Position numbers and translations under genes: made by a program | The notes under the pieces: model-generated | The model's input: only the letters and a program-made list of their open reading frames with translations | Told to the model about the DNA's origin: nothing | Databases searched by the model: none | In this document: positions 8,122-47,060 of the stretch, in pieces | How positions within the stretch are numbered: the stretch's first letter is position 1 | Layout: each line of letters opens with the position of its first letter | From: a virus | Length of the DNA: 62,884 nt | Virus record (IMG/VR): IMGVR_UViG_3300017989_000120 | Location: 1-62,884 of that record | Direction: 5' to 3' (one strand)

Positions 8122-8148
8122 AGCTCCCTGGTAATGGGGAGCTTTTTT
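8122..8148 (+). terminator. Rho-independent terminator
   Basis: AGCTCCC pairs with GGGGAGCT across a short loop and is followed by six T. It ends the virion gene block before the RuvC-like gene. Confidence 0.85.
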
Positions 8149-8186: not shown

Positions 8187-8858
8187 TTGAAAACACTAGT
8201 CGGGATAGACTTTTCCCTTAATTCACCAGCATTCTGCATTTTGAGAGATAATCAATTCACTTGGGGATCTCTGACCAGAAGTGATCGTACAGAAGATTCC
8301 TTAAAAAAGAATTCTAAAAAACCTTACTCTGTCTTATCTGAGGATAAATCCGAAGATTATGTCCTAATGTTTATGTCAAAGGATAAAATGCCAGACGACT
8401 ACTCCGAGAGAGAAAGGATAAAAATAGATTATTTCCAAGAACTTGTCGATGTGTTTTGGTCCGAGATTGAGAACCTCTGTGGTGGAGATGACATTGTGGT
8501 AGCTATGGAAGGACTCAGCTTTGCTTCGAACGGAAATGCTTTAATAGATATTTCCATGGCAACTGCTCTTCTAAGGAAAAAAATAGTGGACCACACAGGA
8601 AGTGATAATTTCTATGTGTATTCTCCCACATCTGTGAAAAAGTTTGCTTACAAGGGAAATGCAAAAAAACACGAACTCTATAATTCTTTAATAGAGCACA
8701 GATTTCCAGAAACTAATCTGAAGTCATTCACTACTATTTTAGAAGAAAACAAGGATGAATGGATAACTCCTTCTGGCAACGTAAATAAGCCACTTGACGA
8801 TATTATTGATTCAACTTGGATATGTTTGTTTTTGCATGACTCAATCAAAGAAGATTAA
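8187..8858 (+). CDS. RuvC-like RNase H-fold nuclease
   Basis: A 223-residue protein predicted to resolve branched DNA (Holliday or Y junctions) during replication and packaging. It has the RuvC/RNase H layout: GIDFSLNSPAF at residues 6-16 with the first Asp, an acidic strand VAMEGLSFA near residue 106, a mid-chain TSVKKFAYKGNAKKHE basic segment, and a C-terminal DDIIDSTWICLFL with paired Asp. RuvC is about 170 residues, so this one is somewhat longer, as in phage members. The start is TTG; no ATG fits the conserved N-terminus. The next gene begins inside its last codons. Confidence 0.75.
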   Translation: MKTLVGIDFSLNSPAFCILRDNQFTWGSLTRSDRTEDSLKKNSKKPYSVLSEDKSEDYVLMFMSKDKMPDDYSERERIKIDYFQELVDVFWSEIENLCGGDDIVVAMEGLSFASNGNALIDISMATALLRKKIVDHTGSDNFYVYSPTSVKKFAYKGNAKKHELYNSLIEHRFPETNLKSFTTILEENKDEWITPSGNVNKPLDDIIDSTWICLFLHDSIKED

Positions 8859-9567
8859 TATACTCATTCCTCTTGGCGGTGCTGGAAGGAGATTTACTGA
8901 AGTAGGGTATAAGCAGGTAAAGCCTTTTATAGATGTAAAAGGTGAAACTATGATTAGGTCAGTTATCAAAAACCTGAACCATAGAGATGCACACTTTATA
9001 TTTGTTGTAAATGAGGAGTATATCTCCCCTAAGGAGTTTAAGTCCCATATAGAAGATGTGGGGATTTCCTATGAAATTTTCTCAACCCCAATCTTGACTC
9101 AAGGACCTGCTTCAACAGTTCTAATTGCCAAAGAAGCTGTAAATAATGAGGTCCCTCTCATTGTTGTAAACTGTGATCAAATTATCCTGGATTTCGATTT
9201 GGATCATTTAATGAACTTTGCAAATTCAACGGGATGTGATGGATTGTTAGGATGTTTTCTTTCTTCCTCTAAGAAGAACAGCTACGTAAAACTTGATCCC
9301 AATGGTGAGGTTTGTGATGTAAAGGAGAAGATTGTTATTTCCAACATAGCTACAAATGGATTGCATTTTTGGAAGCATGGTGAATATTTTGTCTCCAGTG
9401 CAGAACAGATGATAGAATCTAATGACAGATACAACAACGAATTTTATGTTGCCCCCACCTACAATTATCTCATAAAAGATGGAAAAAAAATATTGCCTTT
9501 CTTCTATAATCTTCACTTTCCAATAGGAACCCCGGAGGACCTGGAAAGATTTTTAACGATAGTGTAA
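8836..9567 (+). CDS. Sugar-phosphate nucleotidyltransferase
   Basis: A 243-residue enzyme expected to join an NTP to a sugar- or polyol-phosphate to give a nucleotide-activated precursor. The N-terminal signature is clear: PLGGAGRRFTEVGYKQVKPF (G-x-G-x-R-F and a downstream Lys-Pro). A metal-binding Asp lies in VVNCDQIILD, and G-x-P-E-D-L lies near the end. The length fits the short RmlA/GlmU-N-like class. I place the start at the ATG at 8836, because upstream in-frame codons lie inside the RuvC-like gene. It heads a tightly packed five-gene unit whose third gene is a RuBisCO-like protein. The actual substrate cannot be read from the sequence. Confidence 0.85.
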   Translation: MTQSKKINILIPLGGAGRRFTEVGYKQVKPFIDVKGETMIRSVIKNLNHRDAHFIFVVNEEYISPKEFKSHIEDVGISYEIFSTPILTQGPASTVLIAKEAVNNEVPLIVVNCDQIILDFDLDHLMNFANSTGCDGLLGCFLSSSKKNSYVKLDPNGEVCDVKEKIVISNIATNGLHFWKHGEYFVSSAEQMIESNDRYNNEFYVAPTYNYLIKDGKKILPFFYNLHFPIGTPEDLERFLTIV

Positions 9568-9891
9568 ATGGAGGTTTTTAGAATAGAAGAAATGAAAGAT
9601 GGATGGTACGCTGGTAATTTTTCCCCGTCAGCATACCAAACAGAACAATTTGAGATTTGCTACAAAAAGCATTTTAAGGGTGAAAAATGGCCAAAGCATT
9701 ATCACAAAGAGGCAGACGAAATTAATTATCTTAGATCGGGTAAAATGATAATACAAGGCAGGGAGCTGAGTGCTGGAGATATATTCATCTTGAGAAAAAA
9801 CGAAATTGCTGATCCTGTTTTTTTGGATGACTGCGAGGTCTTTATTGTAAAATCACCTTCTGTACCGGGTGATAAATTTGTGATTGAATGA
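9568..9891 (+). CDS. Single-domain cupin
   Basis: A 107-residue cupin. Motif 1 is HYHKEADEINYLRSG (two His and a Glu in the usual metal-binding spacing), followed by the turn GRELSAGDIFIL. Motif 2 is weak, without its usual His. Small cupins of this sort act as sugar epimerases or isomerases or as sensors of sugar ligands. The start abuts the stop of the nucleotidyltransferase, and the end overlaps the RuBisCO-like gene by 4 nt (ATGA), so the three are translationally coupled. A role in shaping the sugar substrate is inferred. Confidence 0.8.
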   Translation: MEVFRIEEMKDGWYAGNFSPSAYQTEQFEICYKKHFKGEKWPKHYHKEADEINYLRSGKMIIQGRELSAGDIFILRKNEIADPVFLDDCEVFIVKSPSVPGDKFVIE

Positions 9892-11123
9892 TTAGCATTT
9901 TTAAGGATAGGAGTGAATTCGATATTGCTGACTATTTTGTGGTTAGGTATTATTTGGAAGCTAAAACTTCTTTGAGAGATGCCTCTTGGAATTTGGCTAT
10001 CGGTCAAAGTATAGGTAACCCGACGAATCGCAGTGAATGGGAAACTGATGAAATGTTTGAAAATCACAGTTGTTTCATTCTTGCTTCTGAACAAGATCTT
10101 AGCCAAAAAAAAGATGGTGAAGTTGAAATTGCTTTCCCCTTGGCAAACCTTAATTTGGAGGAGGATGGGATATCACAGATCCTTTGCCATATAGCCGGTG
10201 GACAAGTCGATATAGAAGAGGTGAAGCAGTGTCATGTTTTGGATATTGTACTGCCTCAAGAAGTTGAAGACTCTTTTTCTTTGAAACCTGCTTACGGGAT
10301 TAATGGATGGAGAAGATTCAACGGAGTTGATGACAAGCCTTTTCTAGGTGGAATAGTTAAGCCTAAAGTAGGCATGTCCCCTGAGGTATTGCTAGAAGCT
10401 GTTAAAGAGATGGTTTATGGTGGGGTCAACTTTATTAAAGAGGATGAGCTCCTAGCAAACCCTTCTCACTGTCCGCTAGAACAAAGAGTGCCTTTAATTT
10501 CATCTTGGTTAAAAGAAAATGCTCCTGATGTGATCTATTGTTTCTGTATAAATGGTGATAGCCCATATGCTTTGGAAAGAGCTAAATTTGTAGCAGATAA
10601 TGGCGGAAATGGTATTCACATTAATGTTTGGAGTGGATTAGGCGTATATCGTGCTATCAGAAAGCAAAATCCTAATCTTTGGATACACTTCCAAAAAAGT
10701 GGTGATAAATTTTTTACGGATAGAAGATCTCCAAACCATATTTATTGGCCTGTTTTATGCAAGATTGCTGGATGGTCTGGGGTTGATTCTATTCATGCTG
10801 GAATGATTGGTGGTTATATGAACCAGGACGAGGAAGAGATTCGGGATACCCTAAGGGTTCTTTGGAACTATAACATTGTACCTGCTCTTAGTTGCGGAAT
10901 GCATCCGGGTCTAGTCCAGTACATTAACGAAACAATTAGCAGTTTTGATTGGATGGCTAATGTTGGTGGAGCAATGCACGGACATCCACAAGGCACAAGG
11001 GCAGGTGCACTGGCAATGAGACAGTCCATAGACCAAGACTATGATCATCCAGAATATACAATAGCAATAAAAAAGTGGGGAAACAAATGTTTTTCTGAAG
11101 ATTTGGATTACAGAATTTTCTAG
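9888..11123 (+). CDS. RuBisCO-like protein (form IV type)
   Basis: A 411-residue member of the RuBisCO large-subunit superfamily. Landmarks (my residue numbers; spinach equivalents in brackets) are VKPKVGM at 157-163 (K175, K177), K184-x-D-E in NFIKEDEL (K201, D203, E204), H303 in SIHAG (H327), S335 in SCGMHPG (S379) and GGAMHGHPQG at 360-369 (G403/G404 phosphate site). The segment at 267-272 is HFQKSG where true RuBisCO has H-F-H-R-A-G, so His294 and Arg295 are replaced by Gln and Lys. Metal and phosphate chemistry is therefore probably kept but carboxylation is unlikely. Form IV relatives include enolases, isomerases and decarboxylases. The neighbours imply a sugar- or polyol-phosphate substrate. 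I know of no characterised phage enzyme of this type in such a cassette. Confidence 0.9.
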   Translation: MISIFKDRSEFDIADYFVVRYYLEAKTSLRDASWNLAIGQSIGNPTNRSEWETDEMFENHSCFILASEQDLSQKKDGEVEIAFPLANLNLEEDGISQILCHIAGGQVDIEEVKQCHVLDIVLPQEVEDSFSLKPAYGINGWRRFNGVDDKPFLGGIVKPKVGMSPEVLLEAVKEMVYGGVNFIKEDELLANPSHCPLEQRVPLISSWLKENAPDVIYCFCINGDSPYALERAKFVADNGGNGIHINVWSGLGVYRAIRKQNPNLWIHFQKSGDKFFTDRRSPNHIYWPVLCKIAGWSGVDSIHAGMIGGYMNQDEEEIRDTLRVLWNYNIVPALSCGMHPGLVQYINETISSFDWMANVGGAMHGHPQGTRAGALAMRQSIDQDYDHPEYTIAIKKWGNKCFSEDLDYRIF

Positions 11124-11124
11124 C

Positions 11125-11559
11125 ATGAGGCTTATATCGCATAGAGGAAATCTAAACGGACCGAACCCATCAAGGGAAAATAGACTGGATTACATACAAG
11201 AAGCATTGGATATGGGCTATGATGTTGAGATTGACGTCTGGATATCTGATACCTCCATATACTTGGGTCACGATTTACCGGAAACTAAAGTTCCCCTTGA
11301 ATGGCTGCTGGAAAGGTCAGAAAAACTTTGGATCCACTGCAAAAACATAGCAGCTATGGTTTATCTTAAGGAGTATGGTGAACTCAACGTTTTTTGGCAC
11401 GAAGCGGATAAGATTACTTTAACCTCCAGATCATTTATCTGGGCTTTTCCTGGTATGCAGCCAATAAACAAAAGCATTGCTGTTTTGCCCGAAATGTATG
11501 ACGAACCAGTAGACAATTGCTGTGGGGTTTGCTCAGATTACATCTCAAACTATCGATGA
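11125..11559 (+). CDS. GDPD-like half-barrel protein
   Basis: A 144-residue protein with the N-terminal catalytic set of glycerophosphodiester phosphodiesterases: H6-R7-G, E18-N, E35-x-D37-V and G-H49-D50. These residues bind the divalent metal and phosphodiester in that family. Full enzymes are about 240-300 residues, so this is roughly half a TIM barrel. The reading frame is intact, so this appears to be a short family rather than a decayed gene. It begins 1 nt after the RuBisCO-like stop and overlaps the next gene by 4 nt. It could hydrolyse or transfer a polyol-phosphate group. Confidence 0.75.
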   Translation: MRLISHRGNLNGPNPSRENRLDYIQEALDMGYDVEIDVWISDTSIYLGHDLPETKVPLEWLLERSEKLWIHCKNIAAMVYLKEYGELNVFWHEADKITLTSRSFIWAFPGMQPINKSIAVLPEMYDEPVDNCCGVCSDYISNYR

Positions 11560-12338
11560 AAGTAGCATTACTCCTTCCTGGTCAAATAAGAGATGCAGAT
11601 AACACTTTTCCGAACATCAAGAAAAGTATATTGGATAAATTTGACGTTGATGTTTTTATTTCCACCTGGAACCCCTCGAAAGAAATTAAAAACTCACTGC
11701 ACGCGGATACCAAAGATCTTGAAGATCGTATAAACATAGATGCTCTTATGCGTCTTTATTCTCCTGTCCAGATTAGGACTGACAATTTCGATAGTGATGG
11801 TATACAAAAAATCATAGATAGATCTTGGTCCTATGAATCCTTTGGCCCACAGACTGGAGAAATAAGTCCAGTTTCTGTTTTTCTCATGTGGTACAAGATA
11901 AAACAATCTTTCATGTTAATGAAAGACTATGAGGAGATCTTAGGAGAAAGATATGATTATGTCATAAAAGGAAGGATGGACATCCAGATATTGAATGCTC
12001 TAGAACTGGACAAGAATCCCCAAAAGATCTGTGTCCCTCCTGGTTTTGATTGGAAAGGTGGTGTCAATGATATTTTGGCTTGGGGAGGTAGGGATGCAAT
12101 GGAGCATTATTGCAAAATGTTTGATTACTTGGATGAATATATTTTGTCTGGGATCTACTTTCACCCAGAAACTTTATTAAGGCACCATATAGAAAGTTCT
12201 GAATTTATTTTATCTAGGCCTTTTGTTAAGGTGATGCTCCGGGATAAGAATGTTTGGGAGACCGAGGTGTCAGATAATGAAATAGATGAAAAAAGTTTTG
12301 GATATATAGAGTCTAGGGGAAACATTTGGGACACTTAG
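11556..12338 (+). CDS. Glycosyltransferase-like polysaccharide protein
   Basis: A 260-residue protein of the type found in capsule and surface-glycan clusters. It starts MKVALLLPGQIRDAD, has DVDVFISTWNPS near residue 30 and YDYVIKGRMDIQI near residue 132. The R-x-D element matches the substrate-binding acidic motif in GT-A-like relatives. The start is placed at 11556, where ATG overlaps the preceding TGA; an upstream in-frame ATG lies within the GDPD-like gene. As the last gene of the cassette it is the probable acceptor-transfer step. Specificity is unknown. Confidence 0.65.
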   Translation: MKVALLLPGQIRDADNTFPNIKKSILDKFDVDVFISTWNPSKEIKNSLHADTKDLEDRINIDALMRLYSPVQIRTDNFDSDGIQKIIDRSWSYESFGPQTGEISPVSVFLMWYKIKQSFMLMKDYEEILGERYDYVIKGRMDIQILNALELDKNPQKICVPPGFDWKGGVNDILAWGGRDAMEHYCKMFDYLDEYILSGIYFHPETLLRHHIESSEFILSRPFVKVMLRDKNVWETEVSDNEIDEKSFGYIESRGNIWDT

Positions 12339-18552: not shown

Positions 18553-20466
18553 ATGGCTGGGATAAATCACTTATACGACATTTACAATAAGAAGGGATCT
18601 GACTTTGTCAATCAGCTTTTTAATCGTTACGTAACCATCAACGAAAAGATGGACGGCTCGGCTTTCTCTTTTGAAAGAGATAAGGAATCCGGAAATTTCC
18701 GTTTTTATAGGAGGGATCAAAGAAATCCTATAACTTTAGTGGACAGGACTCTCATGAAATATTACGAGAAGCCAATCCAGTATATCGAATCTCTCCCTCC
18801 AAACATACTTGAAAAAATACCTAGAGGATGGAGATTCGGGCTGGAATATTTTTCAAACACCAAACCTGTAGAGATCTCATACGATAGATTGCCAAAGAAT
18901 AACTTGATTCTTTCTTATATCCACAAGATGGGTACTGGAGGTAAGATAGAAAGCACTATCCAGGATAAAGGGGAATTAGATAATTGGGCAGATCTGATTG
19001 GGGTTGAAAGACCACCAATTGTTTTTCAGGGAGTTCTAGACGAGGATCAGAAATCTGAACTTATGGAGTTTTTGAACACCCCGTTCAAGGATCTTGTCGA
19101 AAGATTCAAAACTCAATCTTTTGTTAGGTTTGTTATTAAGACCCTGAACCCAGAGTTAACCAAAACTGCTCTCAACGATGACCTAGATAAGGACGTCGAG
19201 GGAATAGTTTTTAGATTTGGAGAGCCTGATGGGGATAGTGATACTGTTTTAGCTAAAATGGTAGATCCAATATTCACCGAGATTGCTAAGCAAAAGTTTG
19301 CTGACAAAAAGAGCAAAAAACCTTCTGATTTTCTAGGTATTACGCTGCTTGACGTAATGAATTTCATTTTGGAGAAAGATCTTTCCGAATTTGAAGTTGA
19401 AGGAGAGTCTGAGGACGAGAGATACATTTCCTTTATGGGAGACGTTTTTGTCAAGTTCCTTGATGAATACGAGGAAAAGTATAAGGGTACTGATTTCGAA
19501 GAACCAGATTACCTAAAAAGAGAAGAATTTAGGTTAAACAAGGAAAAAATTAAGGATAGAAGAGTTCTTAAGTATGTTGAAAAAGACGACTCGTTCGAAT
19601 CTCTATTCAAACTCATTCTTAATTCCTTCAGAAAAATAAAAACCAGAGCTGGTGGAATAATCACAGCTGGTATGAAGGACCAAATGAATCTTTTGATCAA
19701 AGACATTAAGGACTACATCAAAAAACCAGAGAAGAACGTAAACGAATCTAGGTTTATTAGCTTCGGTGAATTTAGGAAGGAGAACACCCCCTCTGTAGAA
19801 TACCTACAGGAGGAGGATGATTCGGATACAAGTGATGATCCTTTTTTCTCATACCGTGAATTCATCAGCAAACTTGAGACTATTGATAACGAGGAGTTAC
19901 CAAACGAGGTAGAGATTCTTAAAGAGGACGATACCGAGGAAAGAAAGCCGGTAAATGTTATAATGGGTAGATTTCAGCCTTTCCACCAGGGACACCTCAA
20001 GATGGCAAAGGATCTTATGGAGAAAAACGATTTGCCGTCATTCGTTGTTGTAGTTTATCCTGGCCACAACAAGTCTGGAAAATCTCCATTTGATGAAGAA
20101 TCTATCAAAAGATACATGGATGCGATAGTTGCCAACAATGAAGAGATAGAAGGCTATGTTCTTGCTACTCGGGGACTTCTTGGTTCTGCCATTGCAAGAC
20201 TAATAGATATGGGATATGATCCTAAGTTAATTGGTGCAGGCCCCGACCGAATAGATGACTATACTAAGCAGATAGACTATGTTAAGATGTCTGATATAAA
20301 AGACAAAATAAGCGATGACCTAAGCATAGTAGAAACCCCAAGGGTAACGAGTGGTACCGAAGTTAGGCAAGCTATGAAAGACCAGGATTTTGCCAAGTTT
20401 AAAAAGATGGTTCCAAAAGAGGTCTCAAACCTTTATAATGACCTCATTACAAGCGTCAGGGACTGA
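18553..20466 (+). CDS. RNA ligase-like / HxGH nucleotidylyltransferase fusion
   Basis: A 637-residue two-enzyme protein. The N-terminal half is a nucleotidyltransferase-superfamily ligase: motif I EKMDGSAF with candidate adenylated Lys32, motif III-like WRFGLEYF near residue 95, motif IV VEGIVFRFG near 215 and motif V LAKMVDP near 235. The C-terminal domain (about 466-637) is a Rossmann nucleotidylyltransferase: MGRFQPFHQGH with H478-x-G-H481, and late-domain TPRVTSGTEVRQAM, as in NMN or FAD adenylyltransferases. The linker contains two tag-like segments, SRFISFGEFRKEN near 399-408 and SYREFISKLE near 431. It may couple RNA repair to NAD or nucleotide metabolism. Confidence 0.8.
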   Translation: MAGINHLYDIYNKKGSDFVNQLFNRYVTINEKMDGSAFSFERDKESGNFRFYRRDQRNPITLVDRTLMKYYEKPIQYIESLPPNILEKIPRGWRFGLEYFSNTKPVEISYDRLPKNNLILSYIHKMGTGGKIESTIQDKGELDNWADLIGVERPPIVFQGVLDEDQKSELMEFLNTPFKDLVERFKTQSFVRFVIKTLNPELTKTALNDDLDKDVEGIVFRFGEPDGDSDTVLAKMVDPIFTEIAKQKFADKKSKKPSDFLGITLLDVMNFILEKDLSEFEVEGESEDERYISFMGDVFVKFLDEYEEKYKGTDFEEPDYLKREEFRLNKEKIKDRRVLKYVEKDDSFESLFKLILNSFRKIKTRAGGIITAGMKDQMNLLIKDIKDYIKKPEKNVNESRFISFGEFRKENTPSVEYLQEEDDSDTSDDPFFSYREFISKLETIDNEELPNEVEILKEDDTEERKPVNVIMGRFQPFHQGHLKMAKDLMEKNDLPSFVVVVYPGHNKSGKSPFDEESIKRYMDAIVANNEEIEGYVLATRGLLGSAIARLIDMGYDPKLIGAGPDRIDDYTKQIDYVKMSDIKDKISDDLSIVETPRVTSGTEVRQAMKDQDFAKFKKMVPKEVSNLYNDLITSVRD

Positions 20467-25922: not shown

Positions 25923-27335
25923 ATGATAGTAGACATTGAAAACAAAGGGACTTATCTAAAAGTATCGTCTTTCTCCGAGGAGGGCGATTTAATTTTTGTA
26001 GATGTTCCTGTCCCAGAGGAGGAAAGGTTTATCTGGGAAAAATGCTCACCTTCGGATAGAAGAAGGGCATCTGATTGGGAGTCTTGGGATGGAATGCCGG
26101 TTAGAAAAGTGAAGACCCAGAAGTATGACAAATACCGAATGGTTCAAATCTTGGAAGAAGCAGACCCAGAGCTTACTAAATCTCTTTGGGATTTCCAAAT
26201 ACCGAAAAAGTACTTTGTGGATATTGAGGTTGAGATGACCGATGAGATGGGAGATTCCCTAGATACCGCTAATGCCAAGAACAAGGTGCTTTCTATCGGT
26301 ATTGCAACAGATAGGTGTAAATCAATAATTCTAGGGCTTGATCCACTTTCAGCAGAGGAGCAAGCGGACATTTACAAAAAGACCAACGAGTATCTTGAAC
26401 CGATGGGGGATGAATGGTCTTTTAAATATCACCAGTTTGAATCTGAGTATGATATGCTTTATACCTTCTTTAAGAAGTTGGCCCCTAAAATGCCATTGAT
26501 AACTGGGTGGAACTGGTTTGGGTATGACTGGCCATATTTGGTGAATAGAGCTAAGAGACTTGGTATCGATCCGAAGGTAATTTCACCAGCTAACTGGCTT
26601 ATTGGAAAGAAAAATCTTCCTATGCATTTGCTAATGGTCGATTATCTTGAGATCTATAAAAAATGGGATCGGACAATTAAGATCAAGGAGAGCAATAGAT
26701 TAGACTATGTTGCAGAGAAGGCTACAGGATTAAAGAAGATTGTATATGATGGATCTCTAAGGGACCTCTACCAGTCTGATTTCCCTAAGTTTATCCTTTA
26801 CAACGTAATTGACTGTGCCCTGGTTCACTATATAGATGTTAAGTTAAAAACCCTTCTAACTTACTTCAAGATAGCAAATTTAAACAGGGTTGAGATCAGT
26901 AGGGCACTTTCTCCCGTGTGGGCAACAGAGGTTATGATGCTCAAAAAGTTTTTGGAAAGGAATCAAGTCTTTGTGAATGAGAGAAAAGAAGAAAGCCATG
27001 TCAAATTCATTGGTGGGTATGTCAAAGAGCCTATCAAGGGACTTCACGAATGGGTTGCTTGTTATGACTTTGCTTCCCTATACCCAAACACCATTGTGCA
27101 ATGGGGTATTTCTCCTGAGGTTTATAAAGGTAAACTAGGAAAGGATATATCTGAAGCCAAGGAGGGATGGGTGAAAACCTCTTCGACCGCACTCTTTGGT
27201 GGAGACGACGAAAGCCCAATCTTGAAGACAATAATTAAGGACCTATACTCAAAGAGGAAGGCAACAAAAAAGAGAATGCTTGAGTTGCAGATAGAAATTG
27301 ACGGGTTGGAGAAACAATTGAAAAAATTAACATAG
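25923..27335 (+). CDS. 43A: DNA polymerase, exonuclease half (split gp43, part A)
   Basis: A 470-residue N-terminal half of a family B replicative polymerase. It contains Exo I FVDIEVEM near residue 99, Exo II TGWNWFGYDWPY near 195, Exo III YNVIDCALVHY near 293, and polymerase motif A YDFASLYPNTIV near 382 with its first catalytic Asp. It ends after a charged helix (RKATKKRMLELQIEIDGLEK) with a normal TAG. The fingers helix with motif B and the palm motif C are encoded by a separate gene at 45915, 18.6 kb away. Together the parts total 851 residues, against 898 in T4 gp43, so nothing essential seems lost. Confidence 0.9.
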   Translation: MIVDIENKGTYLKVSSFSEEGDLIFVDVPVPEEERFIWEKCSPSDRRRASDWESWDGMPVRKVKTQKYDKYRMVQILEEADPELTKSLWDFQIPKKYFVDIEVEMTDEMGDSLDTANAKNKVLSIGIATDRCKSIILGLDPLSAEEQADIYKKTNEYLEPMGDEWSFKYHQFESEYDMLYTFFKKLAPKMPLITGWNWFGYDWPYLVNRAKRLGIDPKVISPANWLIGKKNLPMHLLMVDYLEIYKKWDRTIKIKESNRLDYVAEKATGLKKIVYDGSLRDLYQSDFPKFILYNVIDCALVHYIDVKLKTLLTYFKIANLNRVEISRALSPVWATEVMMLKKFLERNQVFVNERKEESHVKFIGGYVKEPIKGLHEWVACYDFASLYPNTIVQWGISPEVYKGKLGKDISEAKEGWVKTSSTALFGGDDESPILKTIIKDLYSKRKATKKRMLELQIEIDGLEKQLKKLT

Positions 27336-33220: not shown

Positions 33221-34507
33221 ATGGCTTCTAAAAGCAAAAAGAAAAGAGCAAAAAAGGGCTCTAATAAAAACTCCACAAAAAACCATAAACCCAGCGGTCA
33301 AGCAATTGCACAACCCCCTGTAGATTTAACAAAGCAAGACATTTCATTGTGTCTTGTAATGATTGTAAAAGATGAGGGTGACACAATTAGAAGGTGTCTT
33401 ACGCAGGTTGCTCCATTTATTTCATATTATGTAATAGTTGACACCGGGTCTTCTGATAACACCACAGAGGAAATTAATTCCACCATGGAATCTCTTGGTA
33501 TTGAGGGTGAAGTTCACGAAAGACCGTGGGTAAATTTCGAGGTAAATAGGACTGAAAGTCTAGAACTTGCAAAGGGTAAGTGTGATTATAGGTGGATTAT
33601 CGATGCGGACGATACGTTCCAAGTAGCAAATCCAAGTGTAAATCCATTTAGTAATTTACCTAAAGAAAAGGTTGATTGCTTCCAAATTTTATATAAACTT
33701 AATAATCTTCAATACCACAGAGCACAGATCGTCAGGTCTGACCAGGATTGGGTTTATAAAGGCGTATTGCACGAGTACTTAGATCTCCCTGGAAAAGAGC
33801 AATTAATTCAGTACCAGATTCCAGCGGATAAGTGTTATGTAAATGCAGATATCAGTCCGCTTAAAAGAGCAAATTCGTTGGAAGAAAAATATGCTAAAGA
33901 TGCTGAGATCTTAGAAAAAGCATTGGAGGATGAACCTGCCAACACGAGGTATATGTTCTATTTGGCCCAAAGTTATCGGGATTCAAACCAGAAGTTAAAA
34001 GCTATAGAAGCTTATGAGAGAAGAATAGAAGCAGGCGGATGGGAAGAAGAGGTTTATTATTCCATGTACATGATTGGTAAAATTAAAGAGCAACTAGGCA
34101 GACACCCCGATGAGGTTATACAAGCTTATTCAAGGGCATGGGAATATAGACCGGAAAGACTTGAAGCAGTTTTCCATTGTATGAGAAAATTAAGGGAAAG
34201 AGGCAGATGGGTCCTTTCATTTACTTACGGAAATATGGCTGTCAAAAACCCCGGAACCTCTGATATTCTTTTTGTTGAACCCGAGGTTTGGCAGTGGAGA
34301 CTTTTAGACGAATATTCTCTTGCAGCTTTCCATACAGGCAATCCAGAACTGGCCTTTGAAAAAATGGATGCAGTGGTCCGTATGGATTTCTTTGAGCATT
34401 TACCCGCTAATGAGAAGGAAAGAATTCTTAAAAATCTAGATCATTATAGGCAAGCAGCAGCGAAAAAAGCTGAGGTCTTGAAATCTAAGGAAGCTACTAC
34501 CGCTTAA
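33221..34507 (+). CDS. Family 2 glycosyltransferase with TPR-like C-terminus
   Basis: A 428-residue protein. A Lys-rich N-terminal extension (about 1-30) precedes a GT-A domain: LVMIVKDEGDTIRRCL, VIVDTGSSDNTTEEI and the metal-binding WIIDADDTFQ near residue 128. After about residue 220 helical repeats resembling TPRs appear (YMFYLAQSYRDSNQKLKAIE). Such enzymes transfer a sugar from a nucleotide donor to glycans, protein or modified DNA. It is 11 nt upstream of a carbamoyltransferase, suggesting that the sugar it places is then carbamoylated. Confidence 0.85.
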   Translation: MASKSKKKRAKKGSNKNSTKNHKPSGQAIAQPPVDLTKQDISLCLVMIVKDEGDTIRRCLTQVAPFISYYVIVDTGSSDNTTEEINSTMESLGIEGEVHERPWVNFEVNRTESLELAKGKCDYRWIIDADDTFQVANPSVNPFSNLPKEKVDCFQILYKLNNLQYHRAQIVRSDQDWVYKGVLHEYLDLPGKEQLIQYQIPADKCYVNADISPLKRANSLEEKYAKDAEILEKALEDEPANTRYMFYLAQSYRDSNQKLKAIEAYERRIEAGGWEEEVYYSMYMIGKIKEQLGRHPDEVIQAYSRAWEYRPERLEAVFHCMRKLRERGRWVLSFTYGNMAVKNPGTSDILFVEPEVWQWRLLDEYSLAAFHTGNPELAFEKMDAVVRMDFFEHLPANEKERILKNLDHYRQAAAKKAEVLKSKEATTA

Positions 34508-34518
34508 TAAAGCTATCG

Positions 34519-36273
34519 ATGTCCAAGATATTGTCAATATCTGCTGTTGCACACGATTGTGGAATAGCTTATATCGAAGATGGTATTATCAAATATGTTT
34601 TTGAGGAAGAAAGGTTTAAAAGGCTGAAGGGTATTTTTAATCAATTTGCCTTTCCTCATCTTTCCCTTGAAGCATTTGAAAGAGAAACTGGAATAACTCC
34701 TTTTGATAAGGATGTTATAGTTGTAATGCCAAAAGCGGTCCTTTGTGGTCTGGATTATTTGGAGTCTATACTTGAAGTAAAGGACATCTACTTATACGAT
34801 CACCATTTTTCACATGCTTGTACAGCTTATTTTCTTTCTGGGTTTGAAGAGGAGACCCTGGTTTTTAGTTATGACGGAGGTGACTCAAACGGGATAGAGG
34901 AAGATGTTCTCAGTAAGGATGTTCTTCAAAAAATCCGAGATCAAGGTCTCCCAAACAGGGAAACCGAAATTCCAGAGGATGAATACATTAAAGTTGCTTC
35001 CACGGCAAAAACAGATTCGGATTTACCCGATCAACTAAGAATTTGTAACGGCTCTTGGTGGTTTAAAGAAGAACATACACTAAGTAGTAACAGGACATCA
35101 ATCCATGTAGGGAAAAATTCCCAACTAGAGCTAAAATATAAAACTAAGGGATTTGATTCGGTTGCTTCCCTGTGGAATTCTTTTTGTGTGATGAATAATA
35201 TGATAGGAGGGAAAGACGAGGGTAAAATCGTAGGTCTTGCTTCTCAAGGTAAATTCAGCCAAGAAATTTTCGATTCTGTAGGTGATTTTTTTAAATTCGA
35301 CGGCGATCTTAGATGGAAGCATTACTATACTGTGGAAAGCTATTTCCAATCTTTGGACCTGAAAAATCCTGAAATAAAAAAGGACGCAGCCTATATGATC
35401 CAGTATTTTACTGAGTCCTATTTTCTTGAGGTGATACAACATCTTAAATCTCAATATCCGTCTTGCAAAAAATTAGCACTTGCTGGTGGTCTATTTTCAA
35501 ACGTAAAGGTAAACCAAAAGATAAACGAGCTTTCTGAATTTGATGAAATATTTATTGCACCTGGGATGACTGATGGAGGTCTTGCTCTCGGGGCTGCGAT
35601 AGCTAAAGCGAATGAGCTTGGTGAATTCAAAGTGCAGATGATAAATAATGTTTTCTGGGGAAATAAAACCGAGATCCCAGCAATACCCAACAATGTAGAA
35701 CGTGTGGAGCTTAACTTTCACGATATTGCTAATTATCTTGACGAAGGTAAAGTTGTGGGTGTGTTCGCGAATAGAAGAGAGTGGGGACCAAGAGCTTTGG
35801 GTGGAACATCAATTATGTTTGATCCAAGAAGAAATGACGCTCAGGAATACGTAAACAGGAGATTGAACCGGAACGAGGTTATGCCTTTCGCACCCGTTGT
35901 CATGCAAGGGTTTGAATCTATTCCCTTCCATTGTTATAAATCGAAGTATGCATCACAGTTTATGACCATATGCTACGACGTAAAAGATGAGTGGATTAAT
36001 AGAATACCAGGGGTTATAAACACATACGATAATACTGCAAGGATCCAGATTGCTCGAAAAGATAACCTTCCATTTTTCCCCATACTTGAGTCTTTCTATG
36101 AAAAAACTGGGATACCCCTTCTTATGAACACATCGTTCAACGTGCATGGAGAACCAATAATTAATACCTCCGAGCAAGCACTAAATCACTTGCTAGAAGG
36201 GGTAGTTGATATATTAATAGTGCAGGATAGGGTGTATAAATTAAAATCTGATACCTCCATATTCGATACATAG
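34519..36273 (+). CDS. Carbamoyltransferase (NodU/CmcH/TobZ family), copy 1
   Basis: A 584-residue O-carbamoyltransferase that uses carbamoyl phosphate and ATP to carbamoylate a hydroxyl, often on a sugar. The N-terminal Kae1-like fold has ISAVAHDCGIAYIEDG, DHHFSHACTAYFLSG (His ligands) and VFSYDGGDSNG. GKIVGLASQGK and KLALAGGLFSNVKVNQK lie mid-chain. The C-terminal YrdC-like part has WGPRALGGTSIMFDPR, MPFAPVV and NTSFNVHGEPI. It carries about 45 extra residues after the SYDGGDSNG motif compared with the copy at 60692, so it is not a recent duplicate. It forms a pair with the glycosyltransferase upstream. Confidence 0.9.
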   Translation: MSKILSISAVAHDCGIAYIEDGIIKYVFEEERFKRLKGIFNQFAFPHLSLEAFERETGITPFDKDVIVVMPKAVLCGLDYLESILEVKDIYLYDHHFSHACTAYFLSGFEEETLVFSYDGGDSNGIEEDVLSKDVLQKIRDQGLPNRETEIPEDEYIKVASTAKTDSDLPDQLRICNGSWWFKEEHTLSSNRTSIHVGKNSQLELKYKTKGFDSVASLWNSFCVMNNMIGGKDEGKIVGLASQGKFSQEIFDSVGDFFKFDGDLRWKHYYTVESYFQSLDLKNPEIKKDAAYMIQYFTESYFLEVIQHLKSQYPSCKKLALAGGLFSNVKVNQKINELSEFDEIFIAPGMTDGGLALGAAIAKANELGEFKVQMINNVFWGNKTEIPAIPNNVERVELNFHDIANYLDEGKVVGVFANRREWGPRALGGTSIMFDPRRNDAQEYVNRRLNRNEVMPFAPVVMQGFESIPFHCYKSKYASQFMTICYDVKDEWINRIPGVINTYDNTARIQIARKDNLPFFPILESFYEKTGIPLLMNTSFNVHGEPIINTSEQALNHLLEGVVDILIVQDRVYKLKSDTSIFDT

Positions 36274-45914: not shown

Positions 45915-47060
45915 ATGTCAGAAGTACAGGAACTAAAGGAAAAAATAGAAAGGCTCACTGCTTTAAAAAATGAGCTAAAGAACGAAGAGCAAGCCATCAA
46001 GTTGACTATGAACTCTATCTATGGAGCGATTGGTAATAGCTGGTTCGTTTGCTTTAATCCAGAGGTTGCTGAAGCTGTGACTTTGCAGGGGCAAGATCTA
46101 ATTAAGCATTCTGAAAAAATTCTCCACAAGTACTTCCACGAATTTTGGCACAAGGACAAAGAGTTGCACGACAAACTTGGCCTTACTAATGTCAAAAAAA
46201 TACACCGCCCGATGGTAGTGTATGGAGATACTGATTCCAATTATGTTACTTTCCAGGAGGTCGTTGCTTCTTGTGAGGGTTGGGAAGGAAGCGATAAGGA
46301 TTTAATTCTTGCCATCAACGAACACCGATTGGTTGGTTATCTTAAAAAGTGTTTTGACATCTACGCAGAAAAATGGGGCACGGATAACTATCAGGACTTT
46401 GAGCTGGAAACCCTTTCTATTAATGGCATATTCCTTGGTAAGAAGAAGTACGTTACCAATATTGTTTATTCTGATGGAGTACACTCGGAACCCCTTAGTT
46501 CTATCAAGACAACTGGGGTTGAAATGGTAAAGGGTGGTACCCCCTCGTTTGTGAGAGAAAAGCTTATCTATCTAACCAAATTTATCTTTAGCCGCGGTAG
46601 GTCTTTTGAATTAAGGGAGTTTGTCCAAGAACTTAAAACAATTAAGAAAGACTTTAAGGCACAGGAACCCGAAAATATATCGGTTGCTGTAAATGTCAAT
46701 AATTATCAGAAGTTTGTGTTAAACGATACCACAGCTTTGGAAGTAGCAAAGGGATGCCCAATTCATGTAAGAGCATCTGCTTATCACAACTTCTTACTTA
46801 ATTCAACCAAGTATAAGGACAAATATCCGCTTATTGGGGGTGGTGAAAAAGTAAGATTCTATTTTGTTAAGGTTAAGAACCCAGGAGACAATAATGTTTT
46901 TGCTTATTCACAAGGTACCTATCCATATGAATTTGCTCCTCCGATAGATTTTGATCAACAGTTTACAAAAACTATCCTGGACCCGATCAATCGATTTATA
47001 GAGGTAATGGGTCACAATCCAATTTCACCAAACCTTTTTATGATTAACACTTTGTTTTAA
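45915..47060 (+). CDS. 43B: DNA polymerase, catalytic C-terminal half (split gp43, part B)
   Basis: A 381-residue C-terminal half of the family B polymerase. It starts with a short coiled coil (EVQELKEKIERLTALKNELK), then motif B IKLTMNSIYGAIGN, motif C VVYGDTDSNYVTF with the catalytic D-x-D, a thumb region with GIFLGKKKYV (K-K-x-Y motif), and ends SPNLFMINTLF, a plausible clamp-binding tail. The break lies in the fingers between motifs A and B, and both broken ends are helical. The two chains could rejoin as an antiparallel helix pair. It directly follows the clamp-like gene. Confidence 0.9.
   Translation: MSEVQELKEKIERLTALKNELKNEEQAIKLTMNSIYGAIGNSWFVCFNPEVAEAVTLQGQDLIKHSEKILHKYFHEFWHKDKELHDKLGLTNVKKIHRPMVVYGDTDSNYVTFQEVVASCEGWEGSDKDLILAINEHRLVGYLKKCFDIYAEKWGTDNYQDFELETLSINGIFLGKKKYVTNIVYSDGVHSEPLSSIKTTGVEMVKGGTPSFVREKLIYLTKFIFSRGRSFELREFVQELKTIKKDFKAQEPENISVAVNVNNYQKFVLNDTTALEVAKGCPIHVRASAYHNFLLNSTKYKDKYPLIGGGEKVRFYFVKVKNPGDNNVFAYSQGTYPYEFAPPIDFDQQFTKTILDPINRFIEVMGHNPISPNLFMINTLF

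Follow-up and report, generated by a model that had tools for sequence, protein, structure and literature searches.

A RuBisCO-like protein encoded by a T4-like phage is placed in a separate, mostly viral clade and is a candidate enzyme of nucleotide-sugar synthesis

In this study, we analyzed a RuBisCO-like protein (RLP) encoded in the 62,884-nucleotide viral record IMGVR_UViG_3300017989_000120, the whole of which is hereafter called the window. Based on its domain matches, predicted fold and metal-ligand residues, the protein is assigned to the RuBisCO superfamily as a genuine member, and phylogenetic analysis places it in a separate, mostly viral clade. Its gene lies in a conserved, apparently operon-like block, and the RLP probably works in a nucleotide-sugar pathway. 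A more specific proposal, that it is a metal-dependent enediolate enzyme, probably isomerizing or epimerizing a sugar phosphate to supply nucleotide-sugar synthesis, draws on sequence, structural modeling and analogy, and we give it about an even chance.

The window comes from a T4-like phage and encodes a UvsW-like helicase, a gp32-like protein and parts of a family-B DNA polymerase. The polymerase is apparently split into ORFs at 25923–27335 and 45915–47060, which lie 18 kb apart and match PHROG 262 at profile positions 109–489 and 492–840, respectively. Additionally, a second glycan-related block at 33221–36273 holds beta-1,4-glycosyltransferase-like and NodU-like carbamoyltransferase genes, and a 637-aa ORF at 18553–20466 has a cytidyltransferase-like C-terminal part (PHROG 3041). 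The RLP gene belongs to a tightly packed run of five genes:

8122–8143, plus strand: terminator-like hairpin and T run upstream of the gene block (consensus match only)
8839–9567, plus strand: sugar-phosphate nucleotidyltransferase (PF00483; PHROG 3980), the core RLP partner; alternative TTG start at 8794
9568–9891, plus strand: small cupin of 107 aa with the metal motif HxH-x4-E (H44, H46, E51) and without the motif-2 His
9888–11123, plus strand: RLP of 411 aa, overlapping the preceding cupin gene by 4 bases (domain, fold and clade evidence)
11125–11559, plus strand: short glycerophosphodiester-phosphodiesterase (GDPD)-like protein of 144 aa, with HRG, ExD and GHD motifs retained
11517–12338, plus strand: glycosyltransferase-like protein (PHROG 13607; weak DUF7796), overlapping the GDPD-like ORF; the ATG at 11556 is the likelier start

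The ORF check of the window showed the RLP frame to be open over exactly 9888–11123. The protein matches RuBisCO_large (PF00016, E = 3.6e-32, 112 bits against a cut-off of 30), and its N-terminal domain matches RuBisCO_large_N (PF02788, 4.1e-5, 24.2 bits against 20.7). The top PDB sequence match is the form III RuBisCO of P. horikoshii (2cwx, E = 1.2e-36), and a Burkholderia RLP is also among the nearest solved sequences. The AlphaFold model, computed with 26 homologues as input, has a pLDDT of 90 and a pTM of 0.88; it aligns to form III RuBisCO with a TM-score of 0.85 in Foldseek and to 2cwx with a Z of 42.5 over 379 residues in VIA-align. The first-pass annotation had called a RuBisCO-like protein here and suggested modeling it; the call is borne out, and the modeling returned a RuBisCO fold rather than an unrelated one. 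Moreover, against five homologues, pN is 0.07–0.15 and pS 0.74–0.84 (near saturation), and the gene is under purifying selection relative to these homologues.

To place the RLP, we compared it with NCBIfam models and in a maximum-likelihood tree. The form III RuBisCO model scored best, at 169 bits against a cut-off of 497; the OiaX model gave 124.6 bits against 700, and the two MtnW models gave 82 bits (cut-off 514) and 115 bits (cut-off 409). The tree comprises 66 rows, of which those from the PDB hold aligned parts only because they were copied from HMMER alignments; since it is rooted at its midpoint, no order is asserted for the deep splits. Its sample leaves out the R. rubrum Deep-Ykr isomerase and IV-GOS, an unassigned ocean-metagenome RLP clade. 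One clade of 29 rows, supported at 100/100, includes the window RLP and stands apart from forms I, II and III, from MtnW (2zvi, 2oek, 4nas and 3fk4 of the PDB, and locus L274), from the photosynthetic-type RLPs of C. tepidum (1tel) and R. palustris (RLP2), and from the OiaX/3nwr group. L274 was considered as a Deep-Ykr representative and rejected, as its neighbors read as MtnX, MtnB and MtnD-like, so L274 is MtnW. The first-pass annotation had left the placement to such a tree; neither MtnW nor any other sampled characterized clade holds the RLP, in a sample without Deep-Ykr, IV-GOS and the reported viral rbcL. The Global Ocean Sampling study of 2007 noted unassigned branches of RuBisCO homologues (PMC1821046), and the window RLP family may be among them.

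We then aligned 29 family members with solved RLPs and RuBisCO of forms I, II and III and scored their active-site residues. In the window RLP, the relevant segments are as follows:

10356–10373, plus strand: VKPKVG, with K158 and K160 at RuBisCO K175 and K177 (kept in 29 of 29)
10437–10448, plus strand: KEDE (K184-E185-D186-E187), with K184 at the carbamylated K201 and D186 and E187 at the metal ligands D203 and E204, as predicted by alignment (kept in 29 of 29)
10686–10703, plus strand: HFQKSG (residues 267–272), with Q269 at H294 (Gln in 29 of 29) and K270 at R295 (Lys in 27 of 29)
10794–10817, plus strand: H303 (H327, kept) to Y310 (loop-6 K334; Tyr in 29 of 29)
10890–10898, plus strand: S335-C336-G337 at S379-G380-G381, the Cys being fixed across the family
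10965–10970, plus strand: G360-G361 at the phosphate-loop G403-G404

Across the family, K175, K177, K201, D203, E204, S379, G381 and G403 are kept in all 29 members, and H327 and G404 in 28 each. Seven positions are replaced in every member: H294 by Gln, K334 by Tyr, G380 by Cys, E60 and N123 by Gly, T65 by Asn and W66 by Pro. Additionally, 27 of the 29 carry Lys at R295 and Asp at H298. In the window RLP itself, E60/T65/W66/N123 read G/N/P/G, G380 corresponds to C336 and K334 to Y310, replacements that the first-pass annotation had not noted. The residues that the first-pass annotation had listed as retained (K175/K177, K-x-D-E, His327, Ser379 and the GG phosphate loop) are all correct by alignment, as is its reading of HFQKSG as His294 to Gln and Arg295 to Lys. 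This altered pair, fixed clade-wide, is the signature of the separate clade. However, the annotation argued against carboxylation from the pair and overlooked the universal loss of K334, which is the stronger argument. Established RuBisCO biochemistry requires both K334 and H294 for carboxylation; because both are replaced in 29 of 29 members, a carboxylase is unlikely, and judged by its residues the window RLP is almost certainly not one. Of the proposal that the protein enolizes rather than carboxylates, the negative half thus holds, and enolization of a sugar phosphate is plausible. Furthermore, the RLP keeps K177, which is lost in the examined MtnW, photosynthetic-type and OiaX-type RLPs, and is therefore not a decayed copy of those.

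The gene neighborhood is conserved well beyond the window. Of 97 viral RLP loci, 93 encode the nucleotidyltransferase, 87 the cupin and 74 the GDPD-like protein; when RLPs are clustered at 70% identity, the nucleotidyltransferase lies no more than four genes away in 31 of 35 clusters. Contig ends explain some of the loci lacking it and not others. In Legionella, nanoarchaea, Verrucomicrobia and SAR11, the RLP and nucleotidyltransferase genes sit next to each other as well, and in Elusimicrobia they lie a short distance apart. As the pair is also cellular and the cupin is mostly absent from these cellular loci, the RLP–nucleotidyltransferase pair looks like the oldest core. The divergences of the two proteins correlate (rho 0.60; 0 of 500 permutations), partly from shared phage ancestry. 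The window encodes exactly one of each, and the first-pass description of a T4-like phage with an RLP beside sugar-nucleotide genes is supported.

Several loci add to this picture. A LicD-family gene (PF04991, 1e-42) lies next to the Legionella RLP. LicD-type proteins move phosphodiester-linked groups off nucleotide-activated donors. In Legionella maceachernii, nautarum and drozanskii (L102–L104), the RLP and nucleotidyltransferase sit by this gene as a chromosomal version of the module. At loci L113 and L138, the nucleotidyltransferase carries a fused beta-phosphoglucomutase-like HAD domain and adjoins the cupin and RLP. In SAR11, two nucleotidyltransferases flank the RLP (L091 1545–2282 and equivalents in L089–L094); the upstream one lacks the GxGxR nucleotide-binding motif, with IPVAGPNNEF instead, and may be inactive or divergent. 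By sequence reading, a transaldolase-like gene lies near the RLP cassette at L133 (4126–4959) and relatives among L125–L136, as in cyanophages. Profiles gave no substrate for the window nucleotidyltransferase, which scored far below every NCBIfam cut-off, and its nearest structure, 4evw, carries a generic name only and no substrate clue. A phosphonate or glycerol pathway was considered for the block and dropped, the pathway genes being absent.

The distribution of the family is uneven. It has no match among 50,697 isolate-phage records, no PHROG was found for it, and among the matches listed from the BFVD viral structure library none is RuBisCO-like (best TM 0.38, to generic barrels), a missing match there not being proof of absence. 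However, at least 353 IMG/VR stretches encode relatives in a pattern-limited search that kept the 80 best matches per scan, with identities, among the matches listed, of 74–88% in a close group and about 48–57% in a wider one. The first-pass view that such an enzyme is very unusual in a phage thus holds for isolates and fails for uncultivated phages. Relatives also occur at 23 cellular loci (SAR11, Legionella, Azospirillum, nanoarchaea, Patescibacteria, Bacteroidota, Verrucomicrobia and Elusimicrobia), patchily: 2 of 197 genomes in one SAR11 order and 4 of 22 Legionella genomes. Among 398 Pseudomonadota genomes scanned, only Azospirillum matched at comparable similarity. Matches listed from 353 plasmid records were rejected as family members, being other RLPs of about 30% identity or less, and served as references only.

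Isolate cyanophages lack the RLP and carry a homologous nucleotidyltransferase, a GDPD-like protein and sometimes a cupin. Phage Bellamy encodes the nucleotidyltransferase as a fusion with an RpiB sugar-phosphate isomerase (PF02502, 3.9e-32); genes for a PfkB-like kinase and a KdsC-like HAD phosphatase come before the fusion, and the same cupin and GDPD family come after it. The fusion gene, gp206 (L314 5835–6992), is annotated as a "phosphatase"; the order HAD, PfkB, nucleotidyltransferase::RpiB, cupin and GDPD is common to many cyanophage contigs. Scans with the Bellamy fusion and cupin yielded 106 loci, defined by similarity to one cyanophage type, with some contigs present twice and the loci not independent, of which 96 encode RpiB and none an RLP. 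Conversely, RpiB, PfkB and the KdsC-like HAD are found in none of the 97 viral RLP loci, and RLP and RpiB never occur together in the stretches examined. This exclusion pattern is what replacement would give. Any such exchange would not be a clean one-for-one swap, because most RLP cassettes have no counterpart to the kinase and phosphatase of the RpiB cassette.

We propose that a phosphorylated ketose would bind at the carbamate–Mg2+ site of the RLP, which would take the proton alpha to the carbonyl to form an enediolate. Reprotonation elsewhere, in the manner of an isomerase or epimerase, would give a sugar or polyol phosphate, which the adjacent nucleotidyltransferase would activate. The nucleotide-linked unit would then be transferred onto a glycan; the GDPD-like partner, together with the LicD neighbor in Legionella, raises the possibility of a phosphodiester linkage. 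Because sugar-activating genes adjoin and its residues are non-carboxylating, the RLP is probably remodeling a surface-glycan sugar phosphate and not capturing carbon. In R. rubrum, an RLP paired with a cupin isomerizes a sugar phosphate (PMC4958253, PMC6302742), and the RuBisCO fold is thus capable of isomerase chemistry. Cyanophages appear to meet the same need with RpiB, the PfkB-like kinase and the HAD phosphatase. The wider reading, that a largely viral branch of the superfamily makes activated sugars or polyols for glycans, with some phages using an RLP and others the RpiB–kinase–phosphatase route, is tentative, and we place it slightly below an even chance.

Other reactions, such as decarboxylation or a different enolate chemistry, may apply instead and were weighed against this route. 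An OiaX-like decarboxylase or C–C bond enzyme, acting on an oxidized sugar-acid phosphate and supplying an unusual (e.g., branched or shortened) sugar to the nucleotidyltransferase, is unlikely. OiaX-branch RLPs use 3-oxo-isoapionate-4-phosphate (NCBIfam name; PMC6302742) and also have Gly at N123; however, the OiaX score lies far below its cut-off, the clade is separate, OiaX keeps the H294, R295 and K334 that the window family has lost, and the sugar-acid kinases and dehydrogenases that adjoin OiaX have no equivalent among the recognized neighbors. It is rather improbable that the RLP acts after the nucleotidyltransferase, epimerizing or isomerizing a nucleotide-linked sugar, or performs a side reaction of the same glycan pathway. 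Adjacency gives no step order, and several loci place the RLP among epimerases and glycosyltransferases, but both phosphate-site elements are retained and, to our knowledge, all RLP and RuBisCO substrates are small sugar phosphates. A methionine-salvage role, as MtnW (DK-MTP-1-P enolase) or as an R. rubrum-type 5-methylthioribulose-1-P isomerase with a cupin, is very doubtful. The RLP–cupin adjacency resembles that in R. rubrum (PMC4958253), and enolase chemistry would be common to both; however, the tree, with no Deep-Ykr clade knowingly in its sample, separates the RLP from five MtnW sequences, both MtnW models score far below cut-off, no methionine-salvage genes are recognized among the neighbors, and deeper clade members keep the nucleotidyltransferase without the cupin. 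Finally, a true RuBisCO, carboxylating RuBP for phage CO2 fixation or nucleotide salvage, is scarcely credible, although form III gives the best model and nearest solved structures, K175, K177, K201, D203, E204, H327 and S379 are retained and a soil-virus rbcL has been reported as active (PMC12615777), given the replaced K334, H294, N123, E60, T65 and W66, the score far below the form III cut-off, the position outside forms I, II and III, and the nucleotide-sugar neighbors.

If the RLP is indeed a sugar-phosphate isomerase or epimerase of this kind, activation of glycan sugars or polyols would be a new biological role for the RuBisCO superfamily. Its known roles are few: CO2 fixation, salvage of nucleotides and of methionine, and apionate catabolism. 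A conserved, mainly phage branch whose active-site signature is its own and whose context is that of nucleotide sugars points to a further reaction, which becomes testable with the partner nucleotidyltransferase as the read-out. Carbon-fixation roles have been ascribed to virus-encoded rbcL genes from the Great Salt Lake (PMC8506154), from landfills, where they cluster with RbcL-like proteins (PMC12607003), and from mining soils, with activity claimed (PMC12615777); some of these may belong to the window RLP family. A viral rbcL that carries AIGQSxGNP, HFQKSG and a loop-6 GGY needs an assay before it is counted toward CO2 fixation. Our literature search, with most subscription papers beyond its reach, found no paper describing the clade, signature or cassette, a silence that is weak evidence of novelty.

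Compared with known systems, the window RLP shares with form III RuBisCO (P. horikoshii 2cwx/2d69; about 28% identity) the fold, K175, K177, the carbamate and metal triad, H327, S379 and the phosphate glycines; it differs in having Q at H294, K at R295, D at H298, Y at K334, G at N123 and G/N/P at E60/T65/W66. MtnW (2oek, 2zvi) shares the fold (Z about 41), K175 and the site for carbamate and metal, whereas it has Lys at N123, Met or Val at K177 and a kept H294, and belongs to another clade and gene context. The R. rubrum 5-methylthioribulose-1-phosphate isomerase (Deep-Ykr), likened here by description, is also an RLP with a cupin (PMC4958253), in a methionine-salvage context. OiaX and IV-NonPhoto-type RLPs (L263, L280, 3nwr) share the superfamily and metal site, and OiaX the Gly at N123; in contrast, they form a separate clade in a catabolic context, and OiaX and 3nwr keep H294, R295 and K334. 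Finally, three proteins of the Bellamy cassette are homologous to those of the window, namely the nucleotidyltransferase (at 33% identity), the cupin (41%) and the GDPD-like protein (40%); in place of the RLP, the cassette has the RpiB isomerase together with the PfkB-like kinase and the KdsC-like phosphatase.
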